This document shows positions 6,433 to 37,484 of a DNA stretch of 37,484 bases, piece after piece; the stretch's first letter is position 1, and each line of letters begins with the position of its first letter. The notes below the pieces were generated by a model that was not told where the DNA came from, made no database searches, and saw nothing but the letters and a program-made list of their open reading frames with translations. The position numbers were made by a program, and so were the translations under genes. The DNA comes from Opitutales bacterium (lineage in GTDB: Bacteria > Verrucomicrobiota > Verrucomicrobiia > Opitutales > Oceanipulchritudinaceae). Where the stretch lies: assembly GCA_020831585.1 (NCBI GenBank), contig JAFIGE010000039.1, positions 1-37,484 of the forward strand. The letters are read 5' to 3'.

Positions 6433-7638
6433 TCATGCGGTCTTAAGAGGACCGGAGGGAAGAATGGCGAACCAGGCTTCGGCAACTTCTTTCGGCATCG
6501 GTCGCCGGTAATGCCGATGGATCTGCCGGGGAGAATTTCCGGCCTCCGAGGCAACCCGTGCCGGATCACCCGTTAGCGCACACCGGGCACTGATCCAGGC
6601 ATGGCGGAAACCATTTTCCGGCGTTGCGATTCCCGCCGTTCGCGCGATGTCGCGAATGCGGTCCATGGCGAGATTTCGCGCGATGGCCTCCCCCTCGCGC
6701 GGGCTGGCCCGCAACCAGGAAAGCGCCGTCGGGTGAAGACTGATGAAGCGGTTCTTTACGGTTCGTCGCTTCGCACCCGTGACGTTGAGATGCCCCGCTT
6801 CCAGATCGATATCGCGCCATAGCTGCTCGTGGACTTCTGCCCGGCGCATACCGCACCAGGCGGCCAAGGCCAAGGGTGCAAGATAGTTTGGGTGGTCCTG
6901 CTCCATCAAGCGGGCAATTCGCTCAAGATCAGCGGGAGTGAAGAGCCCGATATCTCCTTCCGTTTCCTGCATCGCTTCGGTCAGCTCAGCCTCGGTCGGG
7001 CCATTCCTTGAAAGGAAACCCTGACGCGCGCACCATCGAAAGAGGGCAACGATGTTCCGGCGGTAGGTATTGTGGGTTCCCGGGGCGGAAAATTTCTCCA
7101 TCCACCTTTGCAGAATGCCTGCACGGATCGAGTTCAAGGGCTGACTTCCGAAATCACGGCAGAACACGGTGAGGCAGTTGCGGTAGGTTGCCTTAACATC
7201 GACACCACGGGCCGTTTTTGCTGCCAGAAATCGCTCCACAGCTTCGGTCACTGTCACGGATTGAACTAATGGATGCACACTCTGCCAAGCAGCCGCCGCT
7301 TCCAACAGATGCCCTCCGGTGAGCGTCACGGCGCGTTTCCATTCATGGAGCGCCGCAATCACTCCGGTTTCACCGGCAACATCGCGCGCTGCGGCCAACT
7401 CGTCCAAGTCCGCCGTGCTCGCATGCACCTCCGTCGCGGCACGCCCCCGGTCGACCATATCCACCATCCGTCTTGCCTCATCCTTTGCCCTTTCAATCGT
7501 TGTGAATTGGCGGGTCACGCGGCGACCCCCGTAATGGATGGAAACCGTGAAGCAATGCCCCTGCTTTGTCTGGCTTTTTCGCACCTTGTAGATGTTCGCA
7601 GTGGTGCTGCCTGCCTTAACTTTTATCGGATATGCCAT
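6433..7638 (-). CDS. Tyrosine recombinase/integrase, Asn-substituted type
   Basis: Predicted 401-aa phage-type integrase. An N-terminal SAM-like/core-binding region (about 125-215) precedes the catalytic domain. Visible catalytic positions: Arg in WCGMRRAEV (R265 or R266), Arg in NGFRHAW (R345), and the nucleophile Tyr in HRHYRR (Y377). Both canonical histidines are Asn: the HxxR box reads N342-G-F-R, and the LGHS box reads A-G-N368-S. I recall the same 'GNSP' form in many verrucomicrobial integrases, so this is probably an active subfamily rather than decay. ATG 7638 is the start. The enzyme lies beside the toxin-antitoxin cluster and probably brought it in, though no attachment site was found. 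Confidence 0.85.
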   Translation of the reverse strand: MAYPIKVKAGSTTANIYKVRKSQTKQGHCFTVSIHYGGRRVTRQFTTIERAKDEARRMVDMVDRGRAATEVHASTADLDELAAARDVAGETGVIAALHEWKRAVTLTGGHLLEAAAAWQSVHPLVQSVTVTEAVERFLAAKTARGVDVKATYRNCLTVFCRDFGSQPLNSIRAGILQRWMEKFSAPGTHNTYRRNIVALFRWCARQGFLSRNGPTEAELTEAMQETEGDIGLFTPADLERIARLMEQDHPNYLAPLALAAWCGMRRAEVHEQLWRDIDLEAGHLNVTGAKRRTVKNRFISLHPTALSWLRASPREGEAIARNLAMDRIRDIARTAGIATPENGFRHAWISARCALTGDPARVASEAGNSPRQIHRHYRRPMPKEVAEAWFAILPSGPLKTA

Positions 7639-7654
7639 AACACAGAAATAACAC
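7637..7654. repeat. Direct repeat over the integrase start
   Basis: ATAACAC occurs at 7637-7643 and again at 7648-7654 (11-base step, one helical turn), spanning the integrase start codon on the reverse strand. It could be a binding site for the integrase or a regulator; this is speculative. Confidence 0.3.
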
Positions 7655-7790
7655 GAATAAGTGTGCTAACCTATCCCGAAGAGCACGCAAGCCTAATTAC
7701 CCAAAAACCTTAAATTCATTGCTTTGAGGGCTTTATGGACATTTGCGCAAGTCCCCCCCTGAGCACCACTTTCCCTCGCCGTGAGGCGAC

Positions 7791-7940
7791 TGCCCGGTAG
7801 TCGACCTGTCTTCAGCGGTCGACCCGAAGCGGAGGCGAGCGGGCTGACCCTCGCGCGCCCGCTTCGTCGCCCGGAGCGCGGAAGTTCGCAGACGGCTCTC
7901 CGTCGCCGTCCGGCGATGAATCGGCCGGACTACTTGGCTT
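7791..7940 (+). repeat. REP/BIME-like repeat, copy A
   Basis: First of two tandem units with a 165-bp period. It contains GTAG (7797-7800) directly before hairpin 2 (TCGACC 7801-7806, 10-base loop, GGTCGA 7817-7822). It ends with hairpin 1 (TCCGGC 7909-7914, loop GATGAATCG, GCCGGA 7924-7929) followed by CTAC (7930-7933), which is GTAG on the other strand. GTAG beside a hairpin foot is the hallmark of REP elements bound by RAYT transposases. Confidence 0.75.
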
Positions 7941-7955
7941 CGCCGGAATGCAGGC

Positions 7956-8105
7956 TGCCGGGTAGTCGACCTGTCTTCAGCGGTCGACCCGGAGCGGTCG
8001 CGCGCGGGCGGACCTTTGCGCGCCGGCTTCGTCGCCCGGAGCGCGGATGTTCGCGGGCGGCTCTCCGTCGCCGTCCGGCGATGAATCAGCCGGACTCCTT
8101 GGCTT
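7956..8105 (+). repeat. REP/BIME-like repeat, copy B
   Basis: Second tandem unit, offset exactly 165 bases from copy A and closely similar to it. GTAG is at 7962-7965, hairpin 2 at 7966-7987, and hairpin 1 at 8074-8094 with loop GATGAATCA. Hairpin 1 is followed by CTCC (8095-8098), which is GGAG on the other strand, a known REP tetranucleotide variant. The rest of the gap up to the transporter gene at 8326 shows no gene; a chance frame runs through the repeats. Confidence 0.75.
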
Positions 8106-8325
8106 TGATCTACCCCGACGACATCGGCCGGGGAAGGATCCAGCGGATTTCAACTCTTCGGAGGCTAGGGCAGGTGTTTCATCCGAGCTTCACCCGTCAG
8201 GAGAAGGGTGAACGGGAAAACAAAGGCCAAAATCCCGCAGGCAGAGAAACAGGTTCCGCACCTGGTCGGCTGGAAGCGTTTGCCGGACCCCCGCAACTTG
8301 CTTTCGTTTCAATCCTCCCCGACCT

Positions 8326-10086
8326 GTGAAAGAGCCCCCCGCCAGTCCCCCACCCGCTTCCCCGCCGCCTCCGGGCGGAAAGGGATCGCATCGGGAGTTG
8401 CGTCCCGAGGAAGACGCCCCGCTGAAAGAGATTCTGCTCTACGCTTTCGGGAACATCGAAGGTGCCCTCGCCAACGGCTTCTACGGGCTCATGAACTCTC
8501 TCATGATCGTGGCGCTGGGGATGAACCCGCTCGTGATGGGCTTTATCCTCAGCATCAAGACGCTCTGGGACGGCATCACCGATCCGATCATGGCACACGT
8601 GACGGACCGCACGCGCACACGCTGGGGTCGCCGCCGCCCGTTCATTCTCGTCGGCGGGCTCTCACGGGTGGTCCTGCTGGTGCTCATTTTCCTCTTCTTT
8701 CCGCAGAGTTCGACGGTCAAGACGAACGCGGAACTGGTGGCAGAGCGGGACGCCCGCGAAACGCCCGCTGCGACAGCTCCCGCCGCCACGGCCCCCACAG
8801 ACTCCGAAGGTCTGCCCGAGGATGGCATGACGGAGGCCTTCGAGGAAGCGGCGGAGGCCCCGCCCGCTCCACTCGTTGGCATGCCGCGCCCTCCGCGCCC
8901 GAGCCTCTGGCAGAATTTGCGAAACGGTGTGGGCGAGTTCCTCTCCAACGAAGATCCCTACCACCGCACCGTGGCGATCTATGTGCTCGTGGCCTGTCTC
9001 CTCTTCACCACCCTCACGACGGTTCAGTCCGTGCCCTACTGGGCCCTGGGGATTGAGCTGTGCCCGTCCTACGACGGGCGCACCCGCGTGGTCACCTACC
9101 GCTCCTTTATCGACAAAACGATGGCGGCGGTGGCCCCGTGGATCCTGCCTTTCTGCTTCCTGCCGATTTTCTTCAATGTCATCGAGGGACTGCTCTGGTA
9201 TTCCATTATCGTGGTGGCGATTGGTGGCCCCTCCACCATTCTCATGGTCCTCTATACGCAGGAGCGCATGATGAAATCGATCGCCAAGCCGGGCGACGGG
9301 CCGGGGCTGCTCCGGTCGATGTGGCAGACGGGCAAAAACATCCACTTTCTGAAAATCCTTTTTCTTTTTCAGTTCATCAGCATCACGAACGGTGTTTTCG
9401 CCCAGTTCATGCTTTTCCTGAATATTTACTGGGTCTTTGGCGGCGACGCCCTTGCCGGTTCGGTCATGAGCGGATGGGTGGGAACTCTCGGCGTAGTTGT
9501 ATCCATTCTTGCCCTACCGCTTGTCAACTGGAGCTGCCGTAAGCTGCAAAAGCACCGCGCCCTCCGCTACGCGATCATCTGGATGAGTTTCGGCTCGGCG
9601 GCCAAGTGGTTTATCTTCACGCCGGAGAACCCTTACTGGCAGCTCGCCCTGCCCTTCTTCTTCTCCATCGGGATCAGCGCGGTGTTCACCATCCTTCCCA
9701 CGATGATGGCCGACGTAACGGACATCGATGAACTCCGCCATGGGGTGCGCCGCGAGGGGATGTTTGGGGCCGTCATGGCCTTCCTCATGAAACTCACGGG
9801 GGCCTTCCAGCCGCTCCTTGCCGGTGCCATGCTCGTTGTGTCGGGCTTCGATGTGACGCTGGGAGCGAACCAGACCGAGGAAACGATCCACTCCATGCGC
9901 ATCCTCTTCTCTTTTGTCCCCGCCGGGCTCCTTCTGCTCGCCATCGTTGCCCTCTGGCGCTACCCGCTCACCCGCGAGCGCATGGAGGAAGTGAAAGCCC
10001 AGCTTCTCGTCGCCCGCGCCCGCCGCGCCGCCGAGAAGGAGGCTGCTGAATTGTCCAATGATCCGACCCCATCCCCTGCCACCTGA
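8326..10086 (+). CDS. GPH-family sugar:cation symporter (MFS)
   Basis: Predicted 586-aa inner-membrane transporter of the glycoside-pentoside-hexuronide family. The family signature DPIMAHVTDRTRTRWGRRRPF (86-106, loop 2-3) is clear. About twelve hydrophobic helices follow, including one with the MADVTDIDELR element of the second half. Two features are unusual: a Pro-rich N-terminus (residues 4-16) and a soluble insertion of about 70 residues (130-198) rich in Ala, Pro, Glu and Asp between helices 4 and 5. No ATG lies before the conserved part, so GTG 8326 is taken as the start; no clear Shine-Dalgarno. It overlaps the next gene by 29 bases, so the two are co-translated. It probably imports the sugar released by the downstream hydrolase. 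Confidence 0.85.
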   Translation: MKEPPASPPPASPPPPGGKGSHRELRPEEDAPLKEILLYAFGNIEGALANGFYGLMNSLMIVALGMNPLVMGFILSIKTLWDGITDPIMAHVTDRTRTRWGRRRPFILVGGLSRVVLLVLIFLFFPQSSTVKTNAELVAERDARETPAATAPAATAPTDSEGLPEDGMTEAFEEAAEAPPAPLVGMPRPPRPSLWQNLRNGVGEFLSNEDPYHRTVAIYVLVACLLFTTLTTVQSVPYWALGIELCPSYDGRTRVVTYRSFIDKTMAAVAPWILPFCFLPIFFNVIEGLLWYSIIVVAIGGPSTILMVLYTQERMMKSIAKPGDGPGLLRSMWQTGKNIHFLKILFLFQFISITNGVFAQFMLFLNIYWVFGGDALAGSVMSGWVGTLGVVVSILALPLVNWSCRKLQKHRALRYAIIWMSFGSAAKWFIFTPENPYWQLALPFFFSIGISAVFTILPTMMADVTDIDELRHGVRREGMFGAVMAFLMKLTGAFQPLLAGAMLVVSGFDVTLGANQTEETIHSMRILFSFVPAGLLLLAIVALWRYPLTRERMEEVKAQLLVARARRAAEKEAAELSNDPTPSPAT

Positions 10087-13239: not shown

Positions 13240-13326
13240 ACCGCGCGGGGATCCTTAAAGCGATTCCCTCCCGGCAACCTCGACCTCCAAAACCGCCCCG
13301 CTGAAGCCCGCCCCAAGTGTAATGAC

Positions 13327-13344
13327 AAAGGTTGTCACCTTTTT
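13327..13344 (+). terminator. Probable terminator after the carbohydrate operon
   Basis: AAAGGT (13327-13332), a 4-base loop and ACCTTT (13337-13342), ending in a run of five T. An overlapping palindrome TGACAA/TTGTCA (13323-13337) uses the same bases. It sits 90 bases after the sulfatase stop and immediately beside the stop of the convergent RAYT gene. Confidence 0.45.
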
Positions 13345-14342
13345 CAGTGGCGTTTCGCGACGGTCGCAATCCTCGCAAAGTCAGCACCGCCGTCCTCCAC
13401 GAGCGGTTTGGGCTTCCTTCCCATTCGAAAGCCGAGCCAGCCATCGGCCGCACAGAAGCTTTCCACCCAAGCAACCGAACCCACCACCCAGCTCTCACTG
13501 AAGGCGCGGATCTTCGAGAGAAACCCGGATTCTTCCGCCAGCCGCGCTCGGGGGATCGCTTTCTCCTTCGTTTCACAGCCTGCCGCGCTCCTCTGGTCTC
13601 TCCGAAGAGGCCGCGTCCCCGGCCCCATCCGGCTGCACAACCGCGCACGGTAGCGCTCGTGCCATTTACTCGCCCAAGCCATCTTGCCCTCAATCCGGGC
13701 AATCCCCCGCCGCGCCGCCGAGCTACCCGCGCAAGCCTCTCCAAAACCACTGAAACCATAAGCACCCGCGTCCTCCACCAGACCCGCCCTCACCGGGTTT
13801 AAATCGATATACGCCGCCACCATCCTTTGCGCCGCCGTATCCGCCTCCACGATCACACTGCGGAAACGCTCCGCCCAGAAAGTCCCCACCGTTCCGTGCT
13901 TCTGATTATACCATAAAGTAAACCGCGTCTTCACCTCCCGCATGAAGACCGACACATCCCCCATCCGCGCCTTCAGCCGTCGGCGAATCCCCTCTGCCGA
14001 TTCTCCGTTCTTCTTCAGAATGACCGCCAGATCATCCGCATCCAGCCCCAGCGAAGCGCAACGCGTCGCTCCATAGAGCGCCCGAAAACGCCCCAACAGA
14101 CCCGCATCGTCGAGCTTTTCGGTCTCCTTCGGATCCAGCCGCACGAAAATGTGGAAGTGATTCGCCAAGAAGCAATAAGTCAGCACCTCCATCCCCGCGA
14201 AGGCCGCCTGCGAGCGCATGATTTGCCGCATCGCCTCCATCGCCTCCTCATCCATCAGCCGCCTCTTCTGCACGACCCGCGAAATAAGGTGGTGGCACGC
14301 CAGCCGTGGACACCGCAACCGCCTGCAAAACTTCCTTCTCAT
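13344..14342 (-). CDS. REP-associated tyrosine transposase (RAYT), copy 1
   Basis: Predicted 332-aa Y1-transposase-domain protein of the IS200/IS605-related RAYT family. The HUH metal-binding motif is ANHFHIFV (59-66). The following conserved block reads TRFTLWYNQKHGTVGTFW, then ERFRSVIVE and AAYIDLNPVRAGLV, the signature of this family. In E. coli-type RAYTs the nucleophile Tyr stands where Phe is found here (TRF); the nearest Tyr is four residues on (WYN). The C-terminal extension (about 275-315: FLSKIRAFSESWVVGS) is present, so the gene looks full length. ATG 14342 is the start. A near-identical gene in opposite orientation begins at 36968. Confidence 0.9.
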   Translation of the reverse strand: MRRKFCRRLRCPRLACHHLISRVVQKRRLMDEEAMEAMRQIMRSQAAFAGMEVLTYCFLANHFHIFVRLDPKETEKLDDAGLLGRFRALYGATRCASLGLDADDLAVILKKNGESAEGIRRRLKARMGDVSVFMREVKTRFTLWYNQKHGTVGTFWAERFRSVIVEADTAAQRMVAAYIDLNPVRAGLVEDAGAYGFSGFGEACAGSSAARRGIARIEGKMAWASKWHERYRARLCSRMGPGTRPLRRDQRSAAGCETKEKAIPRARLAEESGFLSKIRAFSESWVVGSVAWVESFCAADGWLGFRMGRKPKPLVEDGGADFARIATVAKRH

Positions 14343-14407: not shown

Positions 14408-14838
14408 CCCGGTGCCAATTCAGTTGTGGATTCTGCTTTTACTCAAGGGGCCGCCGCACCTGACAAACTTCGTGATTACACCCGCAAGTTGCGGAAAAGC
14501 TCGACAGAAGGAGGCCGGGATGCGAATGTCGACTCCTAACCCCTTCCTGAAGATTTCTTTGGTCGTGAATACTCGAAACACCCTTTCCATAAGGCCGCCC
14601 GGCAAGCTCCGATTTTCGGACGCACCCGGTTCGCCCGGTGTTATCGAGTAACCTGCCGGTGAGTGCGTGGACACCCCGGCGGGGCACAGGATGACGCCGG
14701 GCGCTTGCCGCTTCTCCCCGGATTCATGGGGTTTGGCCTCCGCGCGTGTCCGCTCTCTTCCTCCCCTCCCCCAATGCCCGCGTGCCCCCCCTGACGGAAA
14801 GGATACGTTTTCTCCAACCCAATCATCCAAAGACAAGC
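14408..14838. other. Gene-free interval between RAYT copy 1 and rnk
   Basis: I see no gene of recognisable family here. Small GC-rich inverted repeats (for example CCCCGGCGGGG near 14674) are present but not distinctive. The promoter of the rnk-like gene must lie in the right part, without a clear -35/-10 pair. Confidence 0.4.
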
Positions 14839-24236: not shown

Positions 24237-24310
24237 GGAGGGGGATGATAGCGGTTGTGGCCATGAGATATCCATACTCCCGCGGGAGTAGAGGGACGGG
24301 ATAGCGGCGC

Positions 24311-24480
24311 GCCTCCGCCCCGGGCCGACCGCTGAAGGCAGATCGACTACGCAGCAGACAGCATCCTACCGAATGCAAAGTGGTCCGGCAAATTCATCGC
24401 CGGACCGCGCAGGAAAGGGGGCTGCGAACCTCCGCGCCTTGGGTGCCGCGGCAAACGCGCAAAGGTCTGTCCGCCCGCAC
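24311..24480 (-). repeat. REP/BIME-like repeat, copy C (inverted)
   Basis: A diverged third copy of the 165-bp unit, in reverse orientation. Hairpin 1 is GGTCCGGC/GCCGGACC (24382-24389 and 24399-24406), two base pairs longer than in A and B but with the same GATGAAT loop core on the reverse strand. GTAG on the reverse strand (24347-24350) precedes hairpin 2 (24325-24346), whose stem keeps pairing through G-T wobbles. The 24237-24546 gap that holds it has no gene. Confidence 0.7.
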
Positions 24481-24546
24481 ATCCGCTCCTCATCCGACCA
24501 CGGCAACTGCGGAATTCAGGTTGAAACCCGGCCCTAATCACCGGCC

Positions 24547-36902: not shown

Positions 36903-36938
36903 AACTTTTTTAAATGTTCTGAACATTTCAACATTGAC
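36903..36938 (+). repeat. Conserved palindromic box upstream of RAYT copy 2
   Basis: About 36 bases matching the box before RAYT copy 1 (14373-14407 in reverse). It contains the palindrome AATGTT-CTG-AACATT and a third AACATT, starting 65 bases before ATG 36968. Apart from this box the two flanks differ. Confidence 0.6.
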
Positions 36939-36967
36939 CTTCATGGAAGTGTGTTTTGGATAACGAA

Positions 36968-37484
36968 ATGAGCAGAAAATTTTGCCGGAGATTACGCTAT
37001 CCACGATTGGCATGCCACCATCTTATTTCGAGGGTGGTGCAGAAAAGGCGTTTGATGGATGAGGAGGCGATGGAGGCCATGCGCCAGATTATGCGCTCGC
37101 AGGCGGCGTTTGCGGGGATGGAGGTGCTGACGTATTGCTTTATGGCGAATCACTTTCACATCTTCGTGCGGCTGGATCCGAAGGAGACGGAAAACCTCGA
37201 CGATGCGGGTCTGGTGGGGCGGTTTCGGGCGCTGTATGGTGGGACGCGCTGTGCTTCGCTGGGGATCGATGCGGATGATTTGGAGGTCATTCTGAGGAAA
37301 AAGGGAAGCTCCGCTGAGGGCATCCGCCGACGCCTGAAGGCGCGGATGGGGGAGGTGTCCGTTTTCATGCGGGAGGTGAAAACGCGCTTTACTCTGTGGT
37401 ACAACGAGAAGCACGGAACGGTGGGGACCTTCTGGGCGGAGCGTTTCCGCAGTGTGATCGTAGAGGCGGATAGCGAGGCGCAAA
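36968..37484 (+). CDS. RAYT transposase, copy 2 (cut by window end)
   Basis: The first 172 codons of a second RAYT, about nine in ten residues identical to copy 1 and more diverged at synonymous positions. The HUH motif ANHFHIFV is intact, as is TRFTLWYNEKHGTVGTFW, again with Phe at the usual nucleophile position. No frameshift is seen up to the window end; the C-terminal part lies outside. It is opposite in orientation to copy 1, about 22.6 kb away. Confidence 0.9.
   Translation, partial: MSRKFCRRLRYPRLACHHLISRVVQKRRLMDEEAMEAMRQIMRSQAAFAGMEVLTYCFMANHFHIFVRLDPKETENLDDAGLVGRFRALYGGTRCASLGIDADDLEVILRKKGSSAEGIRRRLKARMGEVSVFMREVKTRFTLWYNEKHGTVGTFWAERFRSVIVEADSEAQ

Follow-up and report, generated by a model that had tools for sequence, protein, structure and literature searches.

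A probable REPIN family with unequal GTAG-footed hairpins in Opitutales

REPINs are head-to-head dimers of REP sequences, in the shared vocabulary of BIMEs and REPINs. In the available part of PMC3733652 (Di Nocera et al. 2013), GTAG-tagged REP families have a GTAG foot, a 6-bp stem, unequal head-to-head dimers, a conserved spacer of 20 to 100 bp, and dimers reiterated in tandem, and Opitutus terrae is given as highly enriched in GTAG repeats. The repeat studied here, whose host belongs to the same order as O. terrae (Opitutales), is like these families in foot, stem length, unequal dimers, conserved spacer, and tandem reiteration, whereas its two REPs lie 84 to 88 bp apart and the head-to-head dimers of O. 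terrae GTAG-17 only 1 to 2 bp apart. With the Y and Z REPINs/BIMEs and RAYT REPtrons of Escherichia coli, as portrayed in the accessible portions of PMC6006769 and PMC8266576, it has in common that the two REPs are inverted and unequal, that a RAYT gene is surrounded by its own REPs (as seen in a sister genus), and that a genome can hold several RAYTs, every one of them with tagged hairpins of its own. It differs from them in that no cognate RAYT was found in its own genome, in the alternative foot GGAG, and in loops that are kept while the stems turn over. The kind of element is already known; this family, with its constant left and right ends, appears to be new when judged apart from the 24 consensus GTAG families of PMC3733652. 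The repeat adds a REPIN superfamily with many members to Opitutales, in which several stem variants surround two fixed loops and, in a sister genus, a RAYT is enclosed. With it, direct tests become possible of which part (foot, loop, or stem) is read by the enzyme and of a difference in role between the left and right REPs.

Anatomy of the tandem array

The window (the whole analyzed stretch of 37,484 nucleotides) is part of a genome of 5,281,376 bp, here labeled G000. A repeat search of the window aligned positions 7790 to 7940 with positions 7955 to 8105 as tandem copies at a spacing of 165 and 91% identity, and TRF returned 7790 to 8105 with a period of 165 and 1.9 copies, in agreement with the 165-bp tandem repeat of the preliminary description. 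Both units contain GTAG followed by a hairpin of TCGACC, loop TGTCTTCAGC, and GGTCGA (left REP) and, 84 bp away on the opposite strand, a hairpin of TCCGGC, a loop with GATTCATC, and GCCGGA (right REP), the foot of which on the minus strand is GTAG in copy A and GGAG in copy B (Table 1). Coordinates and folding thus bore out the two hairpins that had been described, including the CTAC and CTCC of copies A and B, and the stems do differ as had been claimed, though the left and right hairpins are built on the same frame of a foot, a 6-bp stem, a 9- to 10-nt loop with TTCA, and the complement. A rearranged third copy that had escaped the preliminary description was found at 24288 to 24517 on the minus strand. 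The array is flanked by a tyrosine-recombinase-like gene (6433 to 7638, minus strand), assigned on a Pfam match under the curated cut-off, and by an MFS transporter gene (8326 to 10086, plus strand).

Single-strand DNA folding, a check proposed in the preliminary description, drew both hairpins of the unit, and the folding energies of whole units were at most modestly below those of shuffled sequences (z scores of -0.7 to -2.7). An inverted-repeat search of positions 7400 to 8500 at default settings returned none; the hairpins came from folding and pattern matching instead. Rfam gave nothing at gathering scores in the whole window. A CRISPR-DR9 match in 7600 to 8400, seen in an Rfam search at an E value of ≤1, scored 17.5 bits, below the gathering score of 45, with E = 0.72, and was taken as chance.

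Table 1. Positions of the repeat copies, their parts, and the RAYT-like genes in the window
Feature	Positions	Strand	Description	Basis
Repeat unit A	7790..7954	+	165 bp; REPIN plus junction bases on either side	Repeat search, TRF, BLAST
Repeat unit B	7955..8105	+	Covers 151 of the 165 bp; identity with A, 91%	Repeat search, TRF, BLAST
Copy A left REP	7797..7823	+	GTAG foot, TCGACC/GGTCGA stem, loop TGTCTTCAGC	Pattern, folding
Copy A spacer	7824..7907	+	84 bp (84 to 88 bp in most other inspected copies)	Copy inspection
Copy A right REP	7908..7933	-	GTAG foot, TCCGGC/GCCGGA stem, loop CGATTCATC	Pattern, folding
Junction of tandem REPINs	7934..7961	+	28 bp (21 to 31 bp in most other inspected arrays)	Copy inspection
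Copy B left REP	7962..7988	+	GTAG foot	Pattern, copy inspection
Copy B right REP	8073..8098	-	GGAG foot	Copy inspection
Remnant of second tandem unit	24288..24350	-	Left REP beyond a 29-bp junction	Covariance model, copy inspection
Degenerate third copy	24380..24517	-	Part of spacer and right REP with GTGG foot	BLAST, covariance model
RAYT-like Y1_Tnp protein	13344..14342	-	332 aa; an inverted repeat at either end (13317-13337 and 14461-14482); no GTAG REPs on its flanks; unlikely to be the cognate transposase	Pfam, flank scans
Second RAYT-like gene	36938..37483	+	Same class; open frame cut by contig end	Pfam, class comparison

Copies of the repeat and conservation of its stems

At least 60 BLAST matches of the unit were found in G000 (40 of 97 first-look candidates scored). 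A covariance model built from 18 copies chosen by hand had at least 97 matches at an E value of ≤0.01, a number that is a lower bound because 150 of 5,355 first-look candidates were scored. These matches form 72 clusters, which are spread over 59 contigs. The left hairpin with up to three mismatches was matched 20 times and its reversed control not at all. The genome thus holds many further copies, a point on which the preliminary description had made its reading depend. Under a strict rule, 40 of the 83 model matches inspected (of 97) contain one left and one right hairpin, as two inverted REPs with their feet outside, one contains two right hairpins, and 42 are partial or decayed, with one recognizable hairpin, none, or a hairpin that lacks the loop motif. 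Array periods in G000 were 165, 160, 170, 152 to 185, 156, and 204 bp. Of the 72 clusters, 20 are no farther than 300 bp from the end of a contig, compared to 2.1 expected (three clusters on contigs of unknown length were scored as not near an end), so the arrays probably break the assembly.

Flanking open frames were chosen by script at 16 copies (of the 72 clusters), and 20 of these 31 frames, at 13 copies, were scanned. Pfam matches were obtained in 13 frames at 10 copies, including Hsp90, argininosuccinate synthase, BacA, and glycine dehydrogenase, and at least one recognized neighbor that does not overlap the repeat is present at 10 of the 13 scanned copies. At 7 of the 16 copies, a total of 10 open frames extend into the repeat; 8 of these frames had no Pfam match. 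The other two, one trypsin-like and one of the amidohydrolase type, are at one locus (L077) and reach the repeat by their ends, with the recognized domains outside.

Model matches were present in 4 of 55 related genomes, namely, G000, the sister-genus G002, G009, and G013; the last three correspond to the Opitutales metagenome-assembled genomes (MAGs) Super_Day6_Bin.11, CSSed165cm_301R1, and CSSed162cmA_196, respectively, and the CSSed MAGs presumably originate from soda-lake sediment. The pattern GTAG-N6-TGMTTYAKC was matched 74, 26, 20, and 36 times in these four genomes and at most three times in each of the other 51, with reversed controls of at most four per genome across the 55. In a sample of 387 genomes of the phylum, which includes G000 and G002 and leaves out G009 and G013, the other 385 genomes had at most six pattern matches each, and the controls had up to five. 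Further model matches were found on contigs of the MAGs LCM1.Bin39, coassembly_bin.52, and PBR18_bin56 and, weakly, GSL.Bin9. The genus JAIUMY01, the name of which is the accession prefix of PBR18_bin56, is placed in a soda-lake family of Opitutales in the available part of PMC13274419. Among the matches listed in a literature search, there was no paper on REPINs in these MAGs.

Covariation was assessed in 31 full-length copies out of the 60 matches, which BLAST had found by sequence alone; of two identical copies on contig C43, one was dropped, and the copy ends were set from hairpin inspection. Standard pairs occupied 96.1% of the pair cells. The covariation score of 0.105 exceeded those of all 500 shuffles (mean, 0.065) and of all slid versions (at most 0.027), and changes on both sides were seen in 4 of 18 pairs (7 of 500 shuffles were as high); further pair types were not above the shuffles in these 31 copies (123 of 500 as high). 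The left foot was GTAG in 25 of the 31 copies, and the right foot was GTAG in 24 and GGAG in 5. A model-independent pattern, in which the foot, the outer stem letters, and the loop were fixed and four inner stem positions per side were free, gave 51 sites in 48 stretches of genome contigs. In eight Opitutales/Verrucomicrobia MAGs, at least three of the four inner positions were complementary at 35 of 36 sites, for which the chance expectation is ~5%, although sites of one lineage are not independent because of their common descent. Seven fully complementary stem types occur among the sites of these MAGs. Outside the eight MAGs, 3 of 15 sites were complementary, of which two, from two Acinetobacter species, are identical in sequence. 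The stems are kept as pairs, not as letters, by compensatory change. Conservation of the stems and tetranucleotides, on which the preliminary description had likewise staked its reading, is seen in both the stem pairing and the GTAG/GGAG feet.

RAYT genes and the origin of the repeat

The repeat is very probably a tandemly duplicated REPIN, a non-autonomous element most likely mobilized by a RAYT-type enzyme. Its anatomy, copy number, stem covariation, feet, and restriction to one lineage, together with the RAYT enclosed in Super_Day6_Bin.11, support the REP/RAYT assignment made at first sight, as well as its REPIN-like part, since the element is a head-to-head dimer of unequal REPs with feet at both outer ends. 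From published TnpAREP work (the available part of PMC8266576) we infer that a RAYT, a TnpAREP-type HUH/tyrosine single-strand transposase, would recognize the foot and hairpin on single-stranded DNA and cleave it there. The same publications, together with the sister-genus locus, point to mobility by a RAYT that would cut and rejoin the DNA, so that REPINs would be moved or copied to new gene-adjacent sites. Tandem arrays could then enlarge by slippage, recombination, or repeated insertion.

On contig JAFIGH010000082.1 of Super_Day6_Bin.11 (locus L226, the same as L186), a canonical RAYT (1501 to 2070 in L226) lies between two elements of the superfamily: its stop codon TAG is within the GTAG of a downstream REPIN of the beta type (model E value, 1.5e-07), and a GTAG-CCGGGG-TGCTTCAGC hairpin is on its other side. 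Among 30 canonical RAYT loci, which are the best matches of one RAYT query, this is the only RAYT flanked by the superfamily. Tagged hairpins within 500 bp, generally with stems of their own, were found on both sides at 18 of the 30 loci and on any side at 25. The scan behind this count was tighter than the others, in which hairpins passed over by it at L227, at L235, and on one of the sides of L226 are visible. GGAG-footed hairpin families flank canonical RAYTs on both sides at L233, L237, L250, L251, L254, and L255; the foot consensus in the available part of PMC6006769 is GT[AG]G, and GGAG lies outside it.

G000 has four canonical RAYTs (on contigs C219, C76, C154, and C77), each with flanking hairpins of other families, and none of the four is flanked by the TCGACC/TCCGGC subfamily. 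Nearest in G000 to the L226 RAYT, at 36% identity, is the C219 RAYT; the GTAG repeat on its flanks is a different one, which was read by eye and missed by the automated scans. Similarly, the single canonical RAYT match of G009, where the repeats are present, is flanked by a different hairpin, and there was no model match at the three loci with canonical RAYT matches in G013 (L240, L247, and L254). A hairpin-grammar scan of RAYT loci gave 8 matches in 231,333 bases versus 2.4 in shuffles, with four at L032 and one at a known copy in L157. The L032 gene (C126; a 150-aa TnpA) was rejected as the cognate, its two-sided GGAG/GTAG-CGGCG hairpins being of another family and the model reaching only an E value of 0.03. 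The cognate RAYT of G000 may have been lost, may lie in an assembly gap, or may have been replaced in trans. The failure to find one is compatible with REPIN membership because REPtrons may be absent, as in many E. coli strains, according to the part of PMC3733652 that was available. Hairpin-flanked canonical RAYTs lie inside open frames of 1,212 to 1,640 aa at L236 (C154), L238 (C77), L229, L249, and L252, which could simply be a matter of GC-rich open frames.

Both genes of the window that had been called RAYTs encode Y1_Tnp proteins, and to that extent the claim of two RAYT genes stands. They are probably not the drivers of the repeat, because none of 58 frames of their class has tagged hairpins on both sides, compared to the 18 of 30 canonical RAYTs; nine have them on some side. 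These 58 frames are of at least 200 aa and come from the examined loci out of the 146 Y1_Tnp matches in G000 (5.28 Mb), the RAYT-like class with both window genes accounting for 65 of 70 examined loci. A right terminal inverted repeat was found in 13 of the 58 and both in 3. Mapping of the distance to RAYT genes, as proposed in the preliminary description, placed the repeats no nearer to Y1_Tnp matches than the expectation, since 3 of the 72 clusters were at most 1 kb away (4.0 expected) and 13 at most 5 kb away (19.9 expected). Proximity to RAYTs was rejected as support.

In its terminal inverted repeats of ~21 bp and its missing REPs, the 332-aa gene of the window is like the TIRYT genes, mostly of subclass 2.1, of PMC3733652 and PMC6006769, beside which no REPs were found according to the available parts of both sources. 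The likeness, which belongs to the neighboring genes and not to the repeat, is one of inverted repeats and missing REPs. According to what was available of PMC6006769, class 2 genes have a low copy number with the exception of subclass 2.3, whereas the Y1_Tnp matches in G000 number 146. A RAYT-like gene seems to have multiplied in the manner of an insertion sequence, because the copies of subgroup P0001 (22 aligned) begin at a common left boundary, TTTTTTAATGTTCTGAACATT, beyond which the DNA is mostly unrelated. In the 387-genome sample, with 11 scored per genome, Y1_Tnp first-look candidates numbered 195 in G000 and 89 in the next genome. Within one lineage, RAYTs with two-sided tagged hairpins can be told apart from RAYT-like genes without such two-sided hairpins, the latter multiplied in G000.

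Movement of the repeat in trans by these numerous RAYT-like proteins with terminal inverted repeats, two of which are encoded in the window, would agree with the coincidence of repeats and high Y1_Tnp counts in the four repeat-bearing genomes (at least 64, 49, 48, and 56, with up to 64 candidates scored per genome, versus at most 17 in the other 51), a co-occurrence that is statistically weak because the four genomes are one clade. It would also agree with right-REP pieces that start 35 to 57 bp past the stop codons of two such genes (L126 and L127, on G000 contigs C150 and C144), at L127 directly after the conserved right end of the gene, and with a whole repeat copy ~430 bp before a third (L157). 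Nevertheless, the lack of two-sided hairpins in the class, the lack of enrichment of repeats around Y1_Tnp matches, and the absence of REP-like sequences beside the subclass 2.1/TIRYT genes in the available part of PMC6006769 make this quite unlikely. We consider it unlikely, too, that the repeat is a structured RNA or DNA element used by the host (a terminator, an mRNA stabilizer, or a protein-binding site) and spread by ordinary duplication with no RAYT. Such a role, which could coexist with mobility, is suggested by the 13 recognized neighbors, of which 12 have an end no more than 90 bp from the repeat and 10 face it with their 3' ends. The restriction of model matches to one family, pattern counts close to the reversed controls in the rest of the phylum sample, the retained feet, and the enclosed RAYT of the sister genome tell against it.

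The start of the tyrosine-recombinase-like gene is ~150 bp from the array, as might be expected of an attachment or recombination site, but no integrase was present among the 20 neighboring frames at 13 other copies or among the 10 overlapping frames, and a reading of this kind is very unlikely. That the array is a coding tandem repeat is hardly credible: an open frame (7781 to 8329; 182 aa) runs through both copies and 165 is a multiple of 3, but the conservation sits in the hairpins, and the periods of other arrays (160, 170, 185, and 152 bp) are not multiples of 3. The REPIN reading is preferred here.

Stem subfamilies and fixed loops

Several stem variants were distinguished. The subfamily of the window, alpha, has left TCGACC and right TCCGGC stems, the beta subfamily (G000 contigs C170, C230, C191, and C113) has left CCGGGG/CCCCGG and right TCGGGC/GCCCGA stems, and another variant in G000 combines left CTGGGT with right TCGGGC. 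The loops are constant across the subfamilies, with CTTCAGC on the left and GATTCATC on the right, or near forms. In the loci examined, 56 distinct head-to-head pairs (identical copies removed) comprised 50 left-right, 3 left-left, and 3 right-right pairs, a count in which many loci had been fetched with a left-right model and two of the three left-left pairs (L228) are of another hairpin family.

Tentatively, the REPIN might be polar, with ends that are lastingly different (CTTCAGC on the left and GATTCATC on the right) and stems that may vary if they stay paired, and the transposase would then read foot and loop rather than stem letters and need one end of each kind; we regard this as possible but doubtful. 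If true, the two ends would be akin to the left and right termini of a transposon, and the prevalence of heterodimers in many families would be accounted for. In the available part of PMC3733652, prevailing heterodimers have no obvious explanation, and protection from removal is suggested.

At L226, L082, and L077 (position 1501 in each), the TAG that ends the adjoining frame is part of the GTAG of the REP, as though the insertion had brought the stop codon with it; at L082 and L077, this was read from the frame ends. Upstream of the sister-genus RAYT (~5690 to 5760 in L186), a right-REP-like hairpin seemed, by eye, to have DNA inserted in its loop.
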